DNA of 40,642 bases from Prolixibacteraceae bacterium. Its GTDB lineage: Bacteria; Bacteroidota; Bacteroidia; Bacteroidales; Prolixibacteraceae. Every line of letters starts with the position of its first letter. Position 1 is the stretch's first letter. Shown here in pieces: positions 32,264 through 39,060 of this stretch. The notes below the pieces were generated by a model. The model worked only from the letters and a program-made list of their open reading frames with translations. It had not been told where the DNA came from and ran no database searches. Position numbers and translations under genes: made by a program. Location of the stretch: assembly GCA_016933815.1 (NCBI GenBank), contig JAFGAF010000104.1, positions 1 through 40,642 on the forward strand. The letters are read 5' to 3'.

Positions 32264-33595
32264 TTATTCTTTTTTGTATTCAAAGCCATAAGTTTCGCTA
32301 TGCTGACTTAAATCGAGTCCAATTTTTTCTGAATTAGGTGTTACTCGCATGCCAATAATTTTGTTGGTAACCCAATAAAGGGCAAACGAACCTCCCAGGG
32401 CAAAAATGGTAACTATAACTAAGGCCAGAATATGGTAACCAAAAGTTTCGAATTCGCCATAAATGAGGCCAACTCCGCTTGCAAAAACTGCTGTCAGAAT
32501 CATTCCTGTAATACCACCTACGCCATGAGCAGGAAAAACGTCGAGTGTATCGTCGATGTTTGAACGATGACCAAAGTAGTTGATCGCAATGTTGCTTATT
32601 ATTGAAGCAGCAACGCCAATGAAAATACTTGATCCTACATTTACAAAGCCGGCAGCCGGGGTAATTGCAACTAAACCAACCACTAAGCCAATTGATGCGC
32701 CCATGGCTGATGGTTTTTTACCTTTTGCAGCATCGAAGAAAATGTAAGCAAGCATTGCTGCTGCCGAAGCGGTATTTGTGTTGAGCAGTGCAAGTGTTGC
32801 TGTTGCGTTTGCGCCTAAAGCCGAACCGGCGTTAAAACCAAACCAACCGAACCACAGCAACCCGGCGCCGAGAAGAACAAATGGTATGTTGGCAGGTTGT
32901 ATGGGTTTGTTGTAGTCTTTTCGTTTGCCCAGAAAAATTGCGCCTGCCAAAGCGGCAAAACCAGCCGACATGTGTACTACAGTTCCTCCTGCAAAATCGA
33001 GTACGCCCCAGTTGCGGAAAAGCCCGTTGGGGTGCCAGGTCATGTGGGCCAGTGGAGCATAAATAAATAAAGTGAACAGGCAAATGAAGAGCATGTATGC
33101 CCTAAAGCGAACGCGTCCGGCAAACGATCCGGTTATTAGGGCCGGTGTGATAATGGCAAACTTGAGTTGAAACATGGCAAAAAGAGCCAGCGGAATGGTT
33201 GGTGCAAGGTCGGGGTGGGTATGCCCATGAACGCCCCTGAACATGAAAAATGTGGCAGGATTTCCAATTATTCCTGAGCCGGCACCACCTATGCTGTCGC
33301 CAAATGCAAGGCTAAAACCAACAACTACCCATAAAATGCTTACAATTCCCATGGCAATAAAGCTTTGCAAAATGGTGGAAATTATGTGGCGTGGGTGTAT
33401 CATTCCTCCATAAAAAAAGCCTAAGCCTGGGGTCATTAATAAAACCAAGGCAGTGGCGGTAAGCATCCATGCTGTGTCGCCCGTGTTTAGTGCCGGATCG
33501 TCGGCAAAATGTCCGCTTCCAGGAAATAAAATTCCTAAAACAGCTGCAATAACTATAAGGCCCAGAATTAAGAGCCAACTACTTTTCCCTTTCAT
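32264..33595 (-). CDS. amt: ammonium transporter Amt
   Basis: 443 aa; DTAWMLTATALVLLMTPGLGFFYGGMI, FAGGTVVHMSAGFAALAGAIFLGKRK, HGVGGITGMILTAVFA. Confidence 0.96.
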   Translation of the reverse strand: MKGKSSWLLILGLIVIAAVLGILFPGSGHFADDPALNTGDTAWMLTATALVLLMTPGLGFFYGGMIHPRHIISTILQSFIAMGIVSILWVVVGFSLAFGDSIGGAGSGIIGNPATFFMFRGVHGHTHPDLAPTIPLALFAMFQLKFAIITPALITGSFAGRVRFRAYMLFICLFTLFIYAPLAHMTWHPNGLFRNWGVLDFAGGTVVHMSAGFAALAGAIFLGKRKDYNKPIQPANIPFVLLGAGLLWFGWFGFNAGSALGANATATLALLNTNTASAAAMLAYIFFDAAKGKKPSAMGASIGLVVGLVAITPAAGFVNVGSSIFIGVAASIISNIAINYFGHRSNIDDTLDVFPAHGVGGITGMILTAVFASGVGLIYGEFETFGYHILALVIVTIFALGGSFALYWVTNKIIGMRVTPNSEKIGLDLSQHSETYGFEYKKE

Positions 33596-33731: not shown

Positions 33732-33999
33732 CTGTGGGGTAATAATTCGAAGAAAGTGTTTGTTTGTTTTTTATGTCTGTTTTTAATGGCTGTTGTTCAA
33801 TTTGAGCATTTTAAATTGATTAAAATATCCCGTTGTGTGAGTTGGTAATTGTTTTGACAAAAAGATATTTGATGTTTTGCTGATAAAAAATGGTTATTAT
33901 GAAAAAAGGTTTGTGTTTGGATAGGTAATTTTGTGTATTTAGTTATTTTTGTGAAAAAGATAGTAATTTAGGCTTTTAACCTTGCAAAAATTTATAAAC

Positions 34000-34464
34000 A
34001 TGTCGATAAAACATCAACTTGACGAGATAGATTTAAAAATTTTAGATATAATAACTAAAAATGCTCGAATGCCGTTTAAGGATGTAGCTGCCGAATGTGG
34101 AATATCGAGGGCTGCAGTTCACCAAAGGGTAAACCGCATGGTTGATATGGAAGTTATTATTGGATCGGGTTATTATATCGATCCAAAGAAAGTTGATTAT
34201 CACACATGTACATATATTGGTATTTTTCTCGAAAAGGGTGGTATTTACGAAGATGTTGCCCGCAGGCTTGAGAAGATTCCTGAAGTTGTTGAGTGTCACT
34301 ATACTACAGGGCAATATGCCATATTTGCTAAAGTTTATGCACGCAACAACGAGCATTTAAAAGAAATACTTAACGAAAATATTCAGAAAATTGATGGTGT
34401 TTCGAGTACCGAAACTTTTATTTCGCTTGAGGAAACCTTTAAACGCGAAGTGCCAATTAATTAA
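34000..34464 (+). CDS. Lrp/AsnC family transcriptional regulator
   Basis: MSIKHQLDEIDLKILDIITKNARMPFKDVAAECGISRAAVHQRVNRMVDMEVI; AsnC HTH plus RAM domain. Start at the internal Met. Confidence 0.93.
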   Translation: MSIKHQLDEIDLKILDIITKNARMPFKDVAAECGISRAAVHQRVNRMVDMEVIIGSGYYIDPKKVDYHTCTYIGIFLEKGGIYEDVARRLEKIPEVVECHYTTGQYAIFAKVYARNNEHLKEILNENIQKIDGVSSTETFISLEETFKREVPIN

Positions 34465-35195
34465 CCTCGTTGTTTAACTACTTCGAACATAACTACTCCA
34501 GTAGCTACCGATACGTTTAACGATTCGATTTTTCCTTTTACCGGTATCTTAATTAATTCGTCGGCTGTTTTAAGCAGTTCGGTTGAAATGCCTGTGTCTT
34601 CGGCTCCTGCAATAATTGTGCAGGGCACTGTGTAATCGCATTCATGGTATAGCTGATTTGCTTTTTCGGTTGCCGCAAATATTTTTATGCCGTTTTCCTG
34701 AAGTTTTTTCAAGGTTAAATGGCCGCTTTTTACTTTGCAAACTGGAACAACATGCAGTGCTCCGGCCGATGTTTTAACTGCATCGGCGTTAATTTGTGCC
34801 GATCCTTTTTCGGGAACGATTATGGCGTGAACGCCGGCACACTCGGCACTGCGTACAATGGCTCCAAAGTTTCGTACGTCGCTTACCTGATCGAGATAAA
34901 CAAAAAACGGGCTGTCGCCATTTTCATAAGTACGTGCAATTATTTCATCGAGATCGAAAAATGGTACCGGCGAGAGAAAAGCAACTACCCCTTGATGGTT
35001 TTTGCGCGTTATTCGGTTGAGTTTTGGCTCAGGAACCGATTGTACATTAATTGAATGCTCTTTGATGAGTTCAGTCAGTTCTTTGTATAGTTCGCCTTGT
35101 AAACCCTTTTTTACAAGTAGTTTATCGATTGTTTTACCTGAGTTAACGGCTTCGATTACAGCCCTGATTCCAAAAATGAAGTTGCTTTTTTCCAT
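34461..35195 (-). CDS. rlmB: 23S rRNA (guanosine(2251)-2'-O)-methyltransferase RlmB
   Basis: FIFGIRAVIEAVNSGKTIDKLLVKKGLQGE...LDQVSDVRNFGAIVRSAECAGVHAII...IAGAEDTGIS...IPVKGKIESLNVSVATGVVMFE; SpoU family. Confidence 0.95.
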   Translation of the reverse strand: MEKSNFIFGIRAVIEAVNSGKTIDKLLVKKGLQGELYKELTELIKEHSINVQSVPEPKLNRITRKNHQGVVAFLSPVPFFDLDEIIARTYENGDSPFFVYLDQVSDVRNFGAIVRSAECAGVHAIIVPEKGSAQINADAVKTSAGALHVVPVCKVKSGHLTLKKLQENGIKIFAATEKANQLYHECDYTVPCTIIAGAEDTGISTELLKTADELIKIPVKGKIESLNVSVATGVVMFEVVKQRG

Positions 35196-35204
35196 GTTTC
35201 AAAG

Positions 35205-37148
35205 TTACCAAGTTTTTTTGTTTTGCCATGCATCGAGTTGCTCATTCGATAATTCCCATTCGTACATGGTTTGATCGAGTTGCCGTTTAACTTTTTCGTA
35301 CTCGTTGTATAAATTATGATCGGTATTATCGGGATTGGCCAATTGCTTATCCATATTTGCCAATTTGCTTTCCAAATCGGCTATTTTGTTTTCGAGCTCT
35401 TCGACTTGTTTTTCGGCCTTTTTAATTTCTTTGTTGATTTCTTTCTGTTCTTCGAAGCTTAGCTCAGTGCTTTTTGTGTTTTTATCTTCTTTTGTTGGAG
35501 TGCCGTTATTGCTGGTTTTTCGTTCGAGTTCTTTAAGCGATTCTATTTTTTTCTTGTTGATAAAATCGTAAATACCACCCAAGTGTTGAATAATTTTTTT
35601 GTCTTTGAATTCGTAAACGCAATCAACCAAACCATCGAGGAATTCGCGGTCGTGCGATACCAATAATATTGTACCGGTAAAATCGCTGAGGGCTTTTTTT
35701 AGTATTTCTTTCGATTGCATATCGAGGTGGTTGGTAGGTTCATCCATTACCAAAAAGTTTACCTCTTCGAGCATCAGTCTAACCATTGCAAGTCGTGTGC
35801 GTTCGCCTCCCGAAAGTACTTTTACTTTTTTATCGACTTCTTCGCCCGAGAACATGAATGCGCCAAGTATATCACGTATCTTTGTGCGTACGTCGCCAAC
35901 AGCTACCTTGTCGATTGTTTCAAGAATAGTGAGTTCACCATCGAGTAAATCGGCCTGGTTTTGAGCAAAGTATCCAATTTTAACGTTATGGCCAATTTTC
36001 ATTAAACCGCTGTGATCCAATTGATTCATTATTATACGAGCCAGTGTTGTTTTGCCTTCGCCGTTTTTGCCAACAAAGGCAATTTTTTCGCTTTGCTCAA
36101 TATATAAATCAATGTTTTGCAGCACCTCTAGTTGCCCGTAAGTTTTGCCAACAGTTTTGGCTTCGACAACAATTTTGCCTGAGCGAGGTGCAGGCGGAAA
36201 TTTAATGTTCAGCCGTTTGTGGTCTTCCTCGTCAACTTCAATGATGTCGATTTTCTCGAGTTGTTTAATGCGCGATTGAACTTGCACTGCTTTTGTGGCC
36301 TTGTACCTGAAGCGTTCAATGAAATCTTCGGTATCCTGAATCATTTTTTGTTGATTGCGGAAAGCTGCCAATTGTTGTTCGCGGCGCTCTGTTCTCAGTT
36401 CAACATATTTCGAATAGTTGGCTTTGTAATCGTAAATTCGACCCAACGATATTTCAATGGTGCGGTTGGTTACGTTGTCGAGGAAGGCCCTGTCGTGCGA
36501 AACCAAAACAATAGCTCCGCTGTAGTTTTTCAGAAAGTCTTCGAGCCATTGAATCGATTCAATATCGAGGTGGTTGGTAGGTTCGTCGAGCAGGAAAATG
36601 TGAGGTTTTTGTAACAGCAGTTTAGCCAACTCGATACGCATGCGCCAGCCTCCGCTGAATTCATTGGTTTGACGGGTGAAATCTTCGCGTTTAAAGCCCA
36701 ATCCAATTAATGTTTGTTCAATGTTTGCATGAAAACTATGCCCTCCCATTAGGTTAAAACGATCGGTAAGGTCGGTTGAACGTTGAATGAGTTGGTGGTA
36801 TTCGTCTGAGTCGTAATCAGTGCGTGTAGCCAGTTCATTGTTGAGCTTTTCAATTTTCTTTTCCATGTTAAGCAGCTCGCTAAAAGCTGTTTGGGCTTCG
36901 TCGAAAACGGTACGCGAATCACGCAATACCATGGTTTGTGGTAAATATCCAACAATTGCATCCTTGGGTGTTATAATGTTTCCTTCGGAAGGCTGTTGAA
37001 GCCCGGCCATCATTTTTAATAAGGTGGTTTTACCTGCCCCGTTTTTTCCTACCAAGCCAATACGGTCGCGAGGATTAACAATAAACGAAATGTCTTTGAA
37101 TAATTCGAATCCCCCAAAATTTAATTTTACCTGCTCAACTGAAATCAT
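35205..37148 (-). CDS. ABC-F family ATP-binding cassette protein
   Basis: Two ABC domains (GLVGKNGAGKTTLLK, GGWRMRIELAKLLLQKPHIFLLDEPTNHLD; AFVGKNGEGKTTLAR, LSGGERTRLAMVRLMLEEVNFLVMDEPTNHLD), interdomain linker, C-terminal coiled coil, no TMs. Confidence 0.95.
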   Translation of the reverse strand: MISVEQVKLNFGGFELFKDISFIVNPRDRIGLVGKNGAGKTTLLKMMAGLQQPSEGNIITPKDAIVGYLPQTMVLRDSRTVFDEAQTAFSELLNMEKKIEKLNNELATRTDYDSDEYHQLIQRSTDLTDRFNLMGGHSFHANIEQTLIGLGFKREDFTRQTNEFSGGWRMRIELAKLLLQKPHIFLLDEPTNHLDIESIQWLEDFLKNYSGAIVLVSHDRAFLDNVTNRTIEISLGRIYDYKANYSKYVELRTERREQQLAAFRNQQKMIQDTEDFIERFRYKATKAVQVQSRIKQLEKIDIIEVDEEDHKRLNIKFPPAPRSGKIVVEAKTVGKTYGQLEVLQNIDLYIEQSEKIAFVGKNGEGKTTLARIIMNQLDHSGLMKIGHNVKIGYFAQNQADLLDGELTILETIDKVAVGDVRTKIRDILGAFMFSGEEVDKKVKVLSGGERTRLAMVRLMLEEVNFLVMDEPTNHLDMQSKEILKKALSDFTGTILLVSHDREFLDGLVDCVYEFKDKKIIQHLGGIYDFINKKKIESLKELERKTSNNGTPTKEDKNTKSTELSFEEQKEINKEIKKAEKQVEELENKIADLESKLANMDKQLANPDNTDHNLYNEYEKVKRQLDQTMYEWELSNEQLDAWQNKKTW

Positions 37149-37284
37149 ACTGTGTGAAAATTTTGCCTGCAAAGATAACAGAATTGCTTAAAGCGCATAT
37201 CGAAAGTTTTTAGCGTTGTTTACCGATAAAAAACCAATACTCACCATCAGTTTTCATGCTTTTACAGTTTACATTCATTTTGCT

Positions 37285-37310
37285 TGTAACATTTTAAAAA
37301 CTAAGCAGTC
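37285..37310 (+). promoter_or_regulatory. possible ECF-sigma-like promoter upstream of the 114-aa secreted protein
   Basis: TGTAAC (37285-37290), 16-nt spacer, AGTC (37307-37310); resembles general ECF spacing (AAC-N16/17-CGTC) with one mismatch. Confidence 0.3.
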
Positions 37311-37369
37311 ATATAGGGTGTAAACACAAAACAAATAACAAAAAATAGTAACAATAAAAATTTAAAGTC

Positions 37370-37714
37370 ATGAAAACACTTATTTTAATCGCAATTGCAC
37401 TCGCAACCCTTATCGTTCCTTTTACCTCAAATGCAGCAAGTAAAAGTACTTCGAACGCCGATGTTGATTCTTTGAGTTTTGAGTATTTTGATGAAACCCA
37501 AGAAGCTGAACTCGAAATTGAACCTTGGATGGTGAATGACGAAGTTTGGAGTTATAACGAAACTGTTAATGAGCCTGAATTAAGCATTGAAAAATGGATG
37601 AGCGACGATAATTATTGGAGTAAAGGCAAAAGTCTTTTAAAAAATTCAGTAGAAGGTGAGTCGGAGTTGGTTATTCAAAAATGGATGACTGATAACAAAA
37701 CCTGGCGTTTGTAG
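37370..37714 (+). CDS. small secreted protein with three Trp/Met-containing repeats
   Basis: Signal peptide MKTLILIAIALATLIVPFTSNAA, then EAELEIEPWMVNDEVW / EPELSIEKWMSDDNYW / ESELVIQKWMTDNKTW. Confidence 0.85.
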   Translation: MKTLILIAIALATLIVPFTSNAASKSTSNADVDSLSFEYFDETQEAELEIEPWMVNDEVWSYNETVNEPELSIEKWMSDDNYWSKGKSLLKNSVEGESELVIQKWMTDNKTWRL

Positions 37715-37785
37715 TATAATTATTAAAATGAAAAGATTCTTCATAGTATTGGTTTAGATAGTTAGTTCGACAATTATTCAGTCTG

Positions 37786-37828
37786 CCACCAATCGTTACA
37801 AGTAATGCGATTGGTGGTTTTTTATTTT
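37786..37828 (+). terminator. Rho-independent terminator
   Basis: CCACCAATCG-TTACAAGTAATG-CGATTGGTGG followed by TTTTTTATTTTT. Confidence 0.92.
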
Positions 37829-37860
37829 TATATTTGAAGAAAAAGAAAATAAGAAATACA

Positions 37861-39060
37861 ATGTCGGAATATTTGAATAATCAATACAACAATGACGAAA
37901 AGCTATTTTTCTTTTCGAAAAAATTAATTGAAACCGGAAGTGCAAGGGATTTTTTCAATGAATTTGAACCTTTGTTGAAAACAGTAAACGCCCGGAATAC
38001 CATGCAAATAATCGATCGTTTGCTAACCGAAAATATTCCTTTTTACCAGGTTAAAGCCAATATAGGCAAATTGTTGAACCTGTTTTACAAATCATTAAAA
38101 GAGGCCCCTGTTAAGGTGCCTGCCGATGGTCATTTTCTGTATTTTTTGATGTTGGAAAACAGAGGTGTCGAGCAAATAATTGGTCAACTTAAAGAAGAAT
38201 TAAAAAAATTGAAAGGAGATGAATATCTTGAACATTTAGGTGTAATAAAAGAATTGTTAGAGCAACTTAAAGCTTATGAGCTTCATTACATAAAAAAAGA
38301 GAATATTCTTTTTCCATACATCGAAAAAACAATAGCTGATTATCGTTGTCTGCAATTAATGTGGTCATTTCACGACGATTACCGGCGTTTATTAAAAAAG
38401 TTATTGTTAATGCTTGACAATAAAAAGCCTGAGCTTAAAGAGCTTCAAAAGCTTATTGGTGATTTGTTTTTTGTTTTGTTGCCTATAATGTTTAGGGAAG
38501 AATTTATTCTGTTTCCCGAGGCTCTACGGTCAATTCCCGATGAAGCATGGGGAGATATGTTGTTGCACGGTAATGAGTTGGGTTGGTGTTATATTGATGC
38601 TCCGATAATCGTTGCTGAGCTTAAGAATAACACAAATGCTACAAAAACAGGTATGGTCGATTTGGTTACAGGCCAGCTAACACCTGAACAAATAATTTTA
38701 ATGATGGAGCATCTTCAGCTAGATGTTACTTATGTTGATGAGAATGATGAAGTACGCTATTTTTCGGGACTTAAGCACCGCATCTTTCCTAGGTCGAAGG
38801 CAATAATTGGACGTAAAGTACAGAATTGTCATCCAAAAGAGAGTGTGCATGTGGTTAATGAAATTGTACAAGCATTTAGGGACGGATCGAAAGATAAGGC
38901 CGATTTTTGGATTCAAATGAAAGGCCGTTTTGTAAAAATAAGTTATTATGCCTTACGCGACGATTCGAATAATTATAAGGGTACTATTGAAGTAAGCCAA
39001 GATGTTAGTGATATTCGAACTCTTGAAGGTGAGAAACGCCTTCTGGATTGGGGTGATTGA
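37861..39060 (+). CDS. DUF438/hemerythrin/PAS domain protein
   Basis: N-terminal DUF438-like region; hemerythrin-like GHFLYFLMLENRGVEQ, HYIKKENILFPYIEK, LMWSFHDDYRRLLKKL; C-terminal PAS VDENDEVRYFSG...IGRKVQNCHPKESVHVVNEIVQAFRDG. Confidence 0.88.
   Translation: MSEYLNNQYNNDEKLFFFSKKLIETGSARDFFNEFEPLLKTVNARNTMQIIDRLLTENIPFYQVKANIGKLLNLFYKSLKEAPVKVPADGHFLYFLMLENRGVEQIIGQLKEELKKLKGDEYLEHLGVIKELLEQLKAYELHYIKKENILFPYIEKTIADYRCLQLMWSFHDDYRRLLKKLLLMLDNKKPELKELQKLIGDLFFVLLPIMFREEFILFPEALRSIPDEAWGDMLLHGNELGWCYIDAPIIVAELKNNTNATKTGMVDLVTGQLTPEQIILMMEHLQLDVTYVDENDEVRYFSGLKHRIFPRSKAIIGRKVQNCHPKESVHVVNEIVQAFRDGSKDKADFWIQMKGRFVKISYYALRDDSNNYKGTIEVSQDVSDIRTLEGEKRLLDWGD

Follow-up and report, generated by a model that had tools for sequence, protein, structure and literature searches.

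A family of small, probably exported WM-repeat proteins in Prolixibacteraceae and relatives and its possible link to envelope-stress control

The window is a stretch of 40,642 nucleotides from a Prolixibacteraceae bacterium (contig JAFGAF010000104.1 of assembly GCA_016933815.1), and one of its genes encodes a small acidic protein with three copies of a 16-residue unit. This protein belongs to a large and apparently undescribed family, the WM-repeat family. No database model covers it, most genomes sampled from one bacterial family carry it, and promoters, an operator and operons link it to the envelope-stress response. We give a probability of about 0.5 to the reading that the protein is a stress-induced, secreted, disordered and multivalent WM array that docks on a shared envelope partner. 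More tentatively, and with a probability somewhat below one half, the family may be an undescribed class of envelope-stress effectors: disordered E-x-W-M-x5-W arrays with many paralogues and a dedicated receptor, wired to ECF, PadR/PspC and MacAB systems. The link to envelope-stress control is the element that is new beyond the sequence reading. To our knowledge, little is known of envelope-stress responses in Bacteroidota, and there are few descriptions of secreted, disordered proteins of bacteria that carry short linear motifs in multivalent form. The WM family gives access to the regulon, and its motif is defined sharply enough to be used for finding the partner.

Table 1. Features of the window at and around the WM gene.
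Feature	Position	Strand	Remarks
amt-like transporter	32264-33595		Part of conserved synteny block; name by sequence reading
Lrp-type regulator	33982-34464		Part of conserved synteny block; name by sequence reading
rlmB	34461-35195		Part of conserved synteny block; name by sequence reading
ABC-F ATPase gene, divergent neighbour	35205-37172	-	Gene order kept in L039; pairing with the WM gene also in L040
Possible site for a regulator: direct repeat TTTACC(G) / CTCACC, 21 nt apart	37219-37247	+	Upstream of ECF-type promoter
ECF-type -35 element TGTAAC	37285-37290	+	Conserved at the syntenic L039 and L040 promoters
ECF-type -10 element GTCATATAGGGTG	37308-37320	+	17 nt from GTAAC
WM-repeat secreted protein (predicted), 114 aa	37370-37714	+	ORF, ATG start; relatives in 98/140 same-family genomes
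Probable signal peptide, residues 1-23	37370-37438	+	Read by eye
Repeat unit 1, EAELEIEPWMVNDEVW	37502-37549	+
Repeat unit 2, EPELSIEKWMSDDNYW	37571-37618	+
Repeat unit 3, ESELVIQKWMTDNKTW	37658-37705	+
Terminator hairpin then T-run	37785-37818	+	MFE -19.2 kcal/mol, z -5.5

The sequence-only reading had described a signal peptide followed by a 91-residue acidic mature protein with three 16-residue units, and recomputation reproduced both the coordinates and the residues of these units. They start at residues 45, 68 and 97, which gives the spacings of 23 and 29 that had been reported, and the chain stops two residues (RL) past the last W, again as described. The same seven positions (E1, E3, L4, I6, W9, M10 and W16) are invariant; when the mature sequence was shuffled 200 times, the best three 16-mers shared 2.3 columns on average and never more than 4. 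The N-terminus is hydrophobic and resembles a signal peptide by eye, with the probable cleavage site placed, also by eye, between MKTLILIAIALATLIVPFTSNAA and SKS. The mature part carries a net charge of -13, and the whole protein has no cysteine. Three known types of exported protein were considered and set aside: a lipoprotein, as there is no lipobox cysteine; a cargo of type IX secretion, as Pfam and NCBIfam place no C-terminal sorting domain in a chain that ends two residues after the last W; and a SilE-like silver- or copper-binding disordered protein, as repeated Met/His/Cys clusters are absent.

More than 60 distinct relatives were collected, all of them small, acidic and exported by prediction. 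Their unit is E-x-x-L-x-[IVL]-E-x-W-M-x-[DN]-x-x-x-[WF], present in 2-8 copies per protein. The extracted relatives are 76-292 residues long, mostly start with MKT and a hydrophobic stretch and contain no recognised domain; every WM open frame listed in 140 same-family genomes is shorter than 300 residues. In a first search of the window genome and 60 relatives, 35 of the 61 genomes gave matches. With a two-unit profile, members were detected in 98 of the 140 same-family genomes, frequently at several loci, and in 21 of the 295 genomes sampled from the order, where they are spread across about ten families. The 395 genomes sampled elsewhere in the phylum gave no member. Named records with WM genes come from Prolixibacteraceae and relatives, for example Draconibacterium, Maribellus, Sunxiuqinia, Mariniphaga, Labilibacter and Carboxylicivirga.

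Conservation of the unit was judged from 210 copies, retrieved with a pattern that demanded W9, M or L at position 10, an aromatic residue at position 16 and hydrophobic residues at positions 4 and 6, and that left the others free. The resulting profile is [ED]1, L4, [IVL]6, E7, W9-M10, [TLV]11, [DN]12 and [WF]16. Beyond the demands of the pattern, E or D occupies position 1 in 96% of the units and E occupies position 7 in 94%, and position 4 is L in 86%, although any of five hydrophobic residues was accepted there. Near-identical units occur in several proteins of one genome. The repeat regions have a median net charge of about -22 per 100 residues and a median of zero His and zero Cys, with one Met per unit core. 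The strict E7, W9, M10 and last aromatic residue, the free linkers and the variable copy number are expected of a motif array with one conserved partner. They fit the suggestion, made from the window protein, that a tiny exported protein carries a short module for binding or assembly. Of the ligands proposed with it (a periplasmic partner, a carbohydrate or a peptide), the analysis gave no ground for preferring any one. The number of repeats in homologues, which had been singled out for checking, does vary, and even syntenic orthologues differ: two WM genes at corresponding loci (L039 and L040) have two units and the window gene has three, so units have been gained or lost at one locus.

No named domain had been assigned to the window protein, and Pfam, NCBIfam and PDB searches likewise gave no match. 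The sequence-only reading had staked itself on two points, that the protein would not fall into a characterised family and that its repeats would be kept in orthologues; no Pfam, NCBIfam or PDB profile match placed it in such a family, and the units are kept in relatives. For the family as a whole, membership of a known protein family was rejected on Pfam, NCBIfam, PHROG and PDB searches. No Pfam, NCBIfam or PHROG model fits the WM members beyond scattered weak matches of single members, the PDB profile search returned no sequence up to E 10, and a literature search at the level of titles and abstracts surfaced no description of such a family.

The window gene is preceded by an ECF-type promoter. 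Its strict form, TGTAACNTTTN13GTC, has a single exact copy in its own genome, at the WM gene, and the upstream footprint common to the window, L039 and L040 consists of TTYACCGAT, TGTAAC and GTCATATNGGGTG. Among 31 WM genes of relatives, 17 have GTAAC-N17-GTC ahead of them, against an expectation of 0.26 and a maximum of 2 in shuffles. In every one of these promoters the spacer is 17, with 16-20 permitted. In the set of 64 distinct WM genes the format lies upstream of 31, and 26 show no recognisable promoter of this type. Four two-unit WM genes of the same genus (L006, L007, L014 and L018) are without the GTAAC promoter and share a GGAATTTAGCGGTAGAAT-like stretch, which is perhaps the promoter of another sigma factor.

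The surroundings of the gene are conserved in part. The order amt, Lrp-type regulator, rlmB, ABC-F and WM is common to the window and L039, and L040 keeps the ABC-F/WM pair. Among relatives, the recurrent neighbours of WM genes are ispE, rlmB, ABC-F, PadR/PspC and MacAB. Since a strong hairpin with a T-run lies 3' of the WM gene, the gene is probably monocistronic, and thus probably transcribed alone. The next gene (37834-39060, + strand), beyond this hairpin, encodes a protein with a hemerythrin HHE domain and PAS_10. The window gene is not part of a PadR/HAAS-PspC operon, and its neighbours are the ABC-F gene and the PAS/hemerythrin gene. Because these are not stress genes, the stress link of the window gene itself rests on its promoter.

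A candidate for the sigma factor emerged from one genome (G030), where the strict pattern occurs five times: at two WM genes, at an ECF sigma gene and at two sites with no evident target. Of the 140 family genomes, 111 have this ECF, almost always as a single copy. At eight resolved orthologous loci, the ECF gene has its own TGTAAC-N17-CGTC promoter 51-63 nt before the ATG and is followed by a gene for a membrane anti-sigma factor of about 345 residues. The promoter of the window gene has the same spacing as that of the ECF gene, and their -10 elements are one base apart (AGTC and CGTC). Across the 140 genomes, 88 have both ECF and WM genes, 10 have WM only, 23 have ECF only and 19 have neither (Fisher p 1.6e-5, uncorrected for phylogeny). 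In wider pattern searches, the GTAAC-N17-GTC format also precedes an OMP_b-brl_2 barrel gene beside the ECF gene, MacB-type ABC ATPase genes in four genomes and a gene for a DUF2807 protein. ECF, barrel, ABC and DUF2807 genes behind one promoter format suggest the make-up of an envelope-stress regulon. At L145 and L157, the same format stands before a gene for a secreted protein of about 155 residues, which at L145 has no Pfam match.

The assignment of this ECF to the window gene is tentative. The candidate was not found in the window's own genome (G000, an 82% complete MAG), nor in G010, G011 and G012, three genomes that are 97-98% complete and have WM genes; it is present in five of the seven other genomes of the same genus. 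Also against the assignment, WM promoters like that of the window gene have A, G or T before GTC, whereas the ECF's own promoters have C. A second ECF group also has promoters of the TGTAAC-N17-GTC format. In four loci of this group (L191, L199, L204 and L217), TGTAAC-N17-GTC (CGTC) lies apparently before the ECF's own gene, and the same promoter precedes a neighbouring gene whose product starts with MEDILIPI or similar. The idea that GTAAC-N17-GTC is specific to one single-copy ECF is weakened by this second group and by the WM genomes without the first ECF. In the mechanism that we propose, an ECF sigma factor freed from its membrane anti-sigma would transcribe the window gene via TGTAAC-N17-GTC, and envelope-maintenance genes would be transcribed together with it by the same ECF. 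Such a system would resemble ECF/membrane anti-sigma envelope-stress regulons in promoter format, in an autoregulated ECF with a downstream anti-sigma and in barrel and ABC targets; it would differ in its output, disordered motif arrays from a family of many genes and not a chaperone or protease.

WM promoters fall into two classes by the base before GTC. Class A (27 genes, the window gene included) has A, G or T, and class B (11 genes) has C. In class A, TTAAG-N5-TTAA lies exactly at -47/-48 from the -35 box in 10 of the 27 genes (L009, L026, L032, L046, L049, L059, L061, L065, L068 and L069), compared with 0.5 in shuffles; we take it to resemble an OmpR/PhoB-type half-site pair. Paired T[TC][AG]CC motifs are also enriched upstream of class A genes (7/27, against 0.2 in shuffles). 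The first copy of the direct repeat upstream of the window promoter is conserved in L039 and L040, and the layout of the repeat presumably resembles that of LytTR-type sites. Class B has fixed elements: a palindrome at -98, TATATTTG at -65 and TTAAAAAAAGTTCTA at -23. With one mismatch permitted, the palindrome TACTATGTRTTGCANNGTANTA has eight copies in 14 genomes, and the reversed control has none. Each of the eight precedes the ECF-type promoter of a WM gene by 75-76 nt, which makes the palindrome a dedicated operator of class B. In five of these eight cases, PadR comes next after the WM gene, ahead of a protein starting with MKKTFTINISG, which at L054 comprises HAAS, PspC, LiaI-LiaF-TM and Toastrack domains (Pfam). 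At L041 and L053, WM genes adjoin MacB/MacA/TolC-type genes.

These class B operons are like the PSP operons with HAAS-PadR, PspC and Toastrack, and in relatives a PadR/HAAS-PspC circuit of the phage-shock type would be a second input to WM genes. The window gene differs in lying outside any such operon. HAAS-PadR systems with PspC are described as a phage-shock-type circuit (PMC11237479), and the portion of that account considered here names no secreted repeat protein of the WM kind.

The regulatory context bears on two other readings. MacB-type ABC transporters and PspC are systems associated with membrane-active compounds, and both are found among the regulon and neighbours of WM genes. This, together with the strong negative charge, suits an acidic, Trp-bearing chain that captures cationic amphipathic peptides, either within the periplasm or beyond the cell, and keeps them off the membrane, one peptide per unit, with more units giving more capacity. 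Capture by charge, however, needs no near-invariant E7, W9 and M10 at fixed places, and we regard such a sponge for antimicrobial peptides as unlikely. Slightly less probable still is a feedback role, in which the units would attach to the anti-sigma factor or to PspC on the periplasmic side and so report or reset the stress signal. The promoter format common to WM genes and the ECF/anti-sigma operon, the operons of WM genes with PspC and an anti-sigma periplasmic C-terminus that looks conserved by eye are all consistent with a feedback ligand, but in 23 genomes the ECF occurs with no WM gene detected, in 10 the reverse holds, and many scattered WM loci per genome are much for such a role.

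The AlphaFold2 model of the window protein, made with 22 relatives in the alignment, has a mean pLDDT of 70 and a pTM of 0.25 and shows no global fold. Each unit forms two four-residue helical pieces, with block pLDDT up to about 90 in places, and confidence is low for the stretch ahead of the first unit in the window protein. Within the limits set by shallow alignments, the net charge and the missing global fold fit a disordered chain with short docking motifs, and the WM proteins are predicted to be largely disordered. In our preferred reading of a docking array, each E-x-x-L-x-[IVL]-E-x-W-M-x5-[WF] unit would be a short linear motif of two helical turns that docks on a common envelope partner, presumably a protein; 2-8 units on flexible acidic linkers would then make a multivalent binder, and the benefit would be protection under stress. 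A 6-unit relative, modelled from a shallow alignment, has a pTM of 0.18, and the model shows no stacking of its units into a solenoid. Another idea is that the units pair with each other, on the surface or in the periplasm, into a network that would strengthen the damaged envelope. The two models show no stacking, though as monomer models from shallow alignments they cannot test assembly. High like charge also disfavours such pairing; with near-identical units across several proteins of one genome, their variable number and the sticky W/M/W pattern in its favour, we consider self-assembly improbable, more so than a feedback role. Excision and modification of the units as peptides from a multi-core precursor would suit the signal peptide and the conserved cores between variable acidic linkers, but it is very improbable, as no maturation enzyme recurs beside WM genes and no conserved cleavage motif was seen in the linkers.

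Seven loci (L043, L045, L047, L050, L051, L060 and L062) represent a subfamily in which the WM protein has 6-7 units and starts with a membrane anchor that shows no obvious cleavage site. Two known kinds of protein invite comparison with the docking array. Spy and CpxP are small exported periplasmic proteins that are made during envelope stress and form a helical cradle. By analogy, WM proteins may be like them in being small, exported and proposed products of envelope stress; they differ in having no Pfam match to these proteins, no predicted folded domain and a repeat motif in place of the cradle. Streptococcal SIC is a secreted acidic tandem-repeat protein. WM proteins, likened to it by description only, are also acidic, repeated and predicted to be secreted, whereas they belong to a different phylum and are built on a 16-residue unit with a fixed E-x-W-M core.
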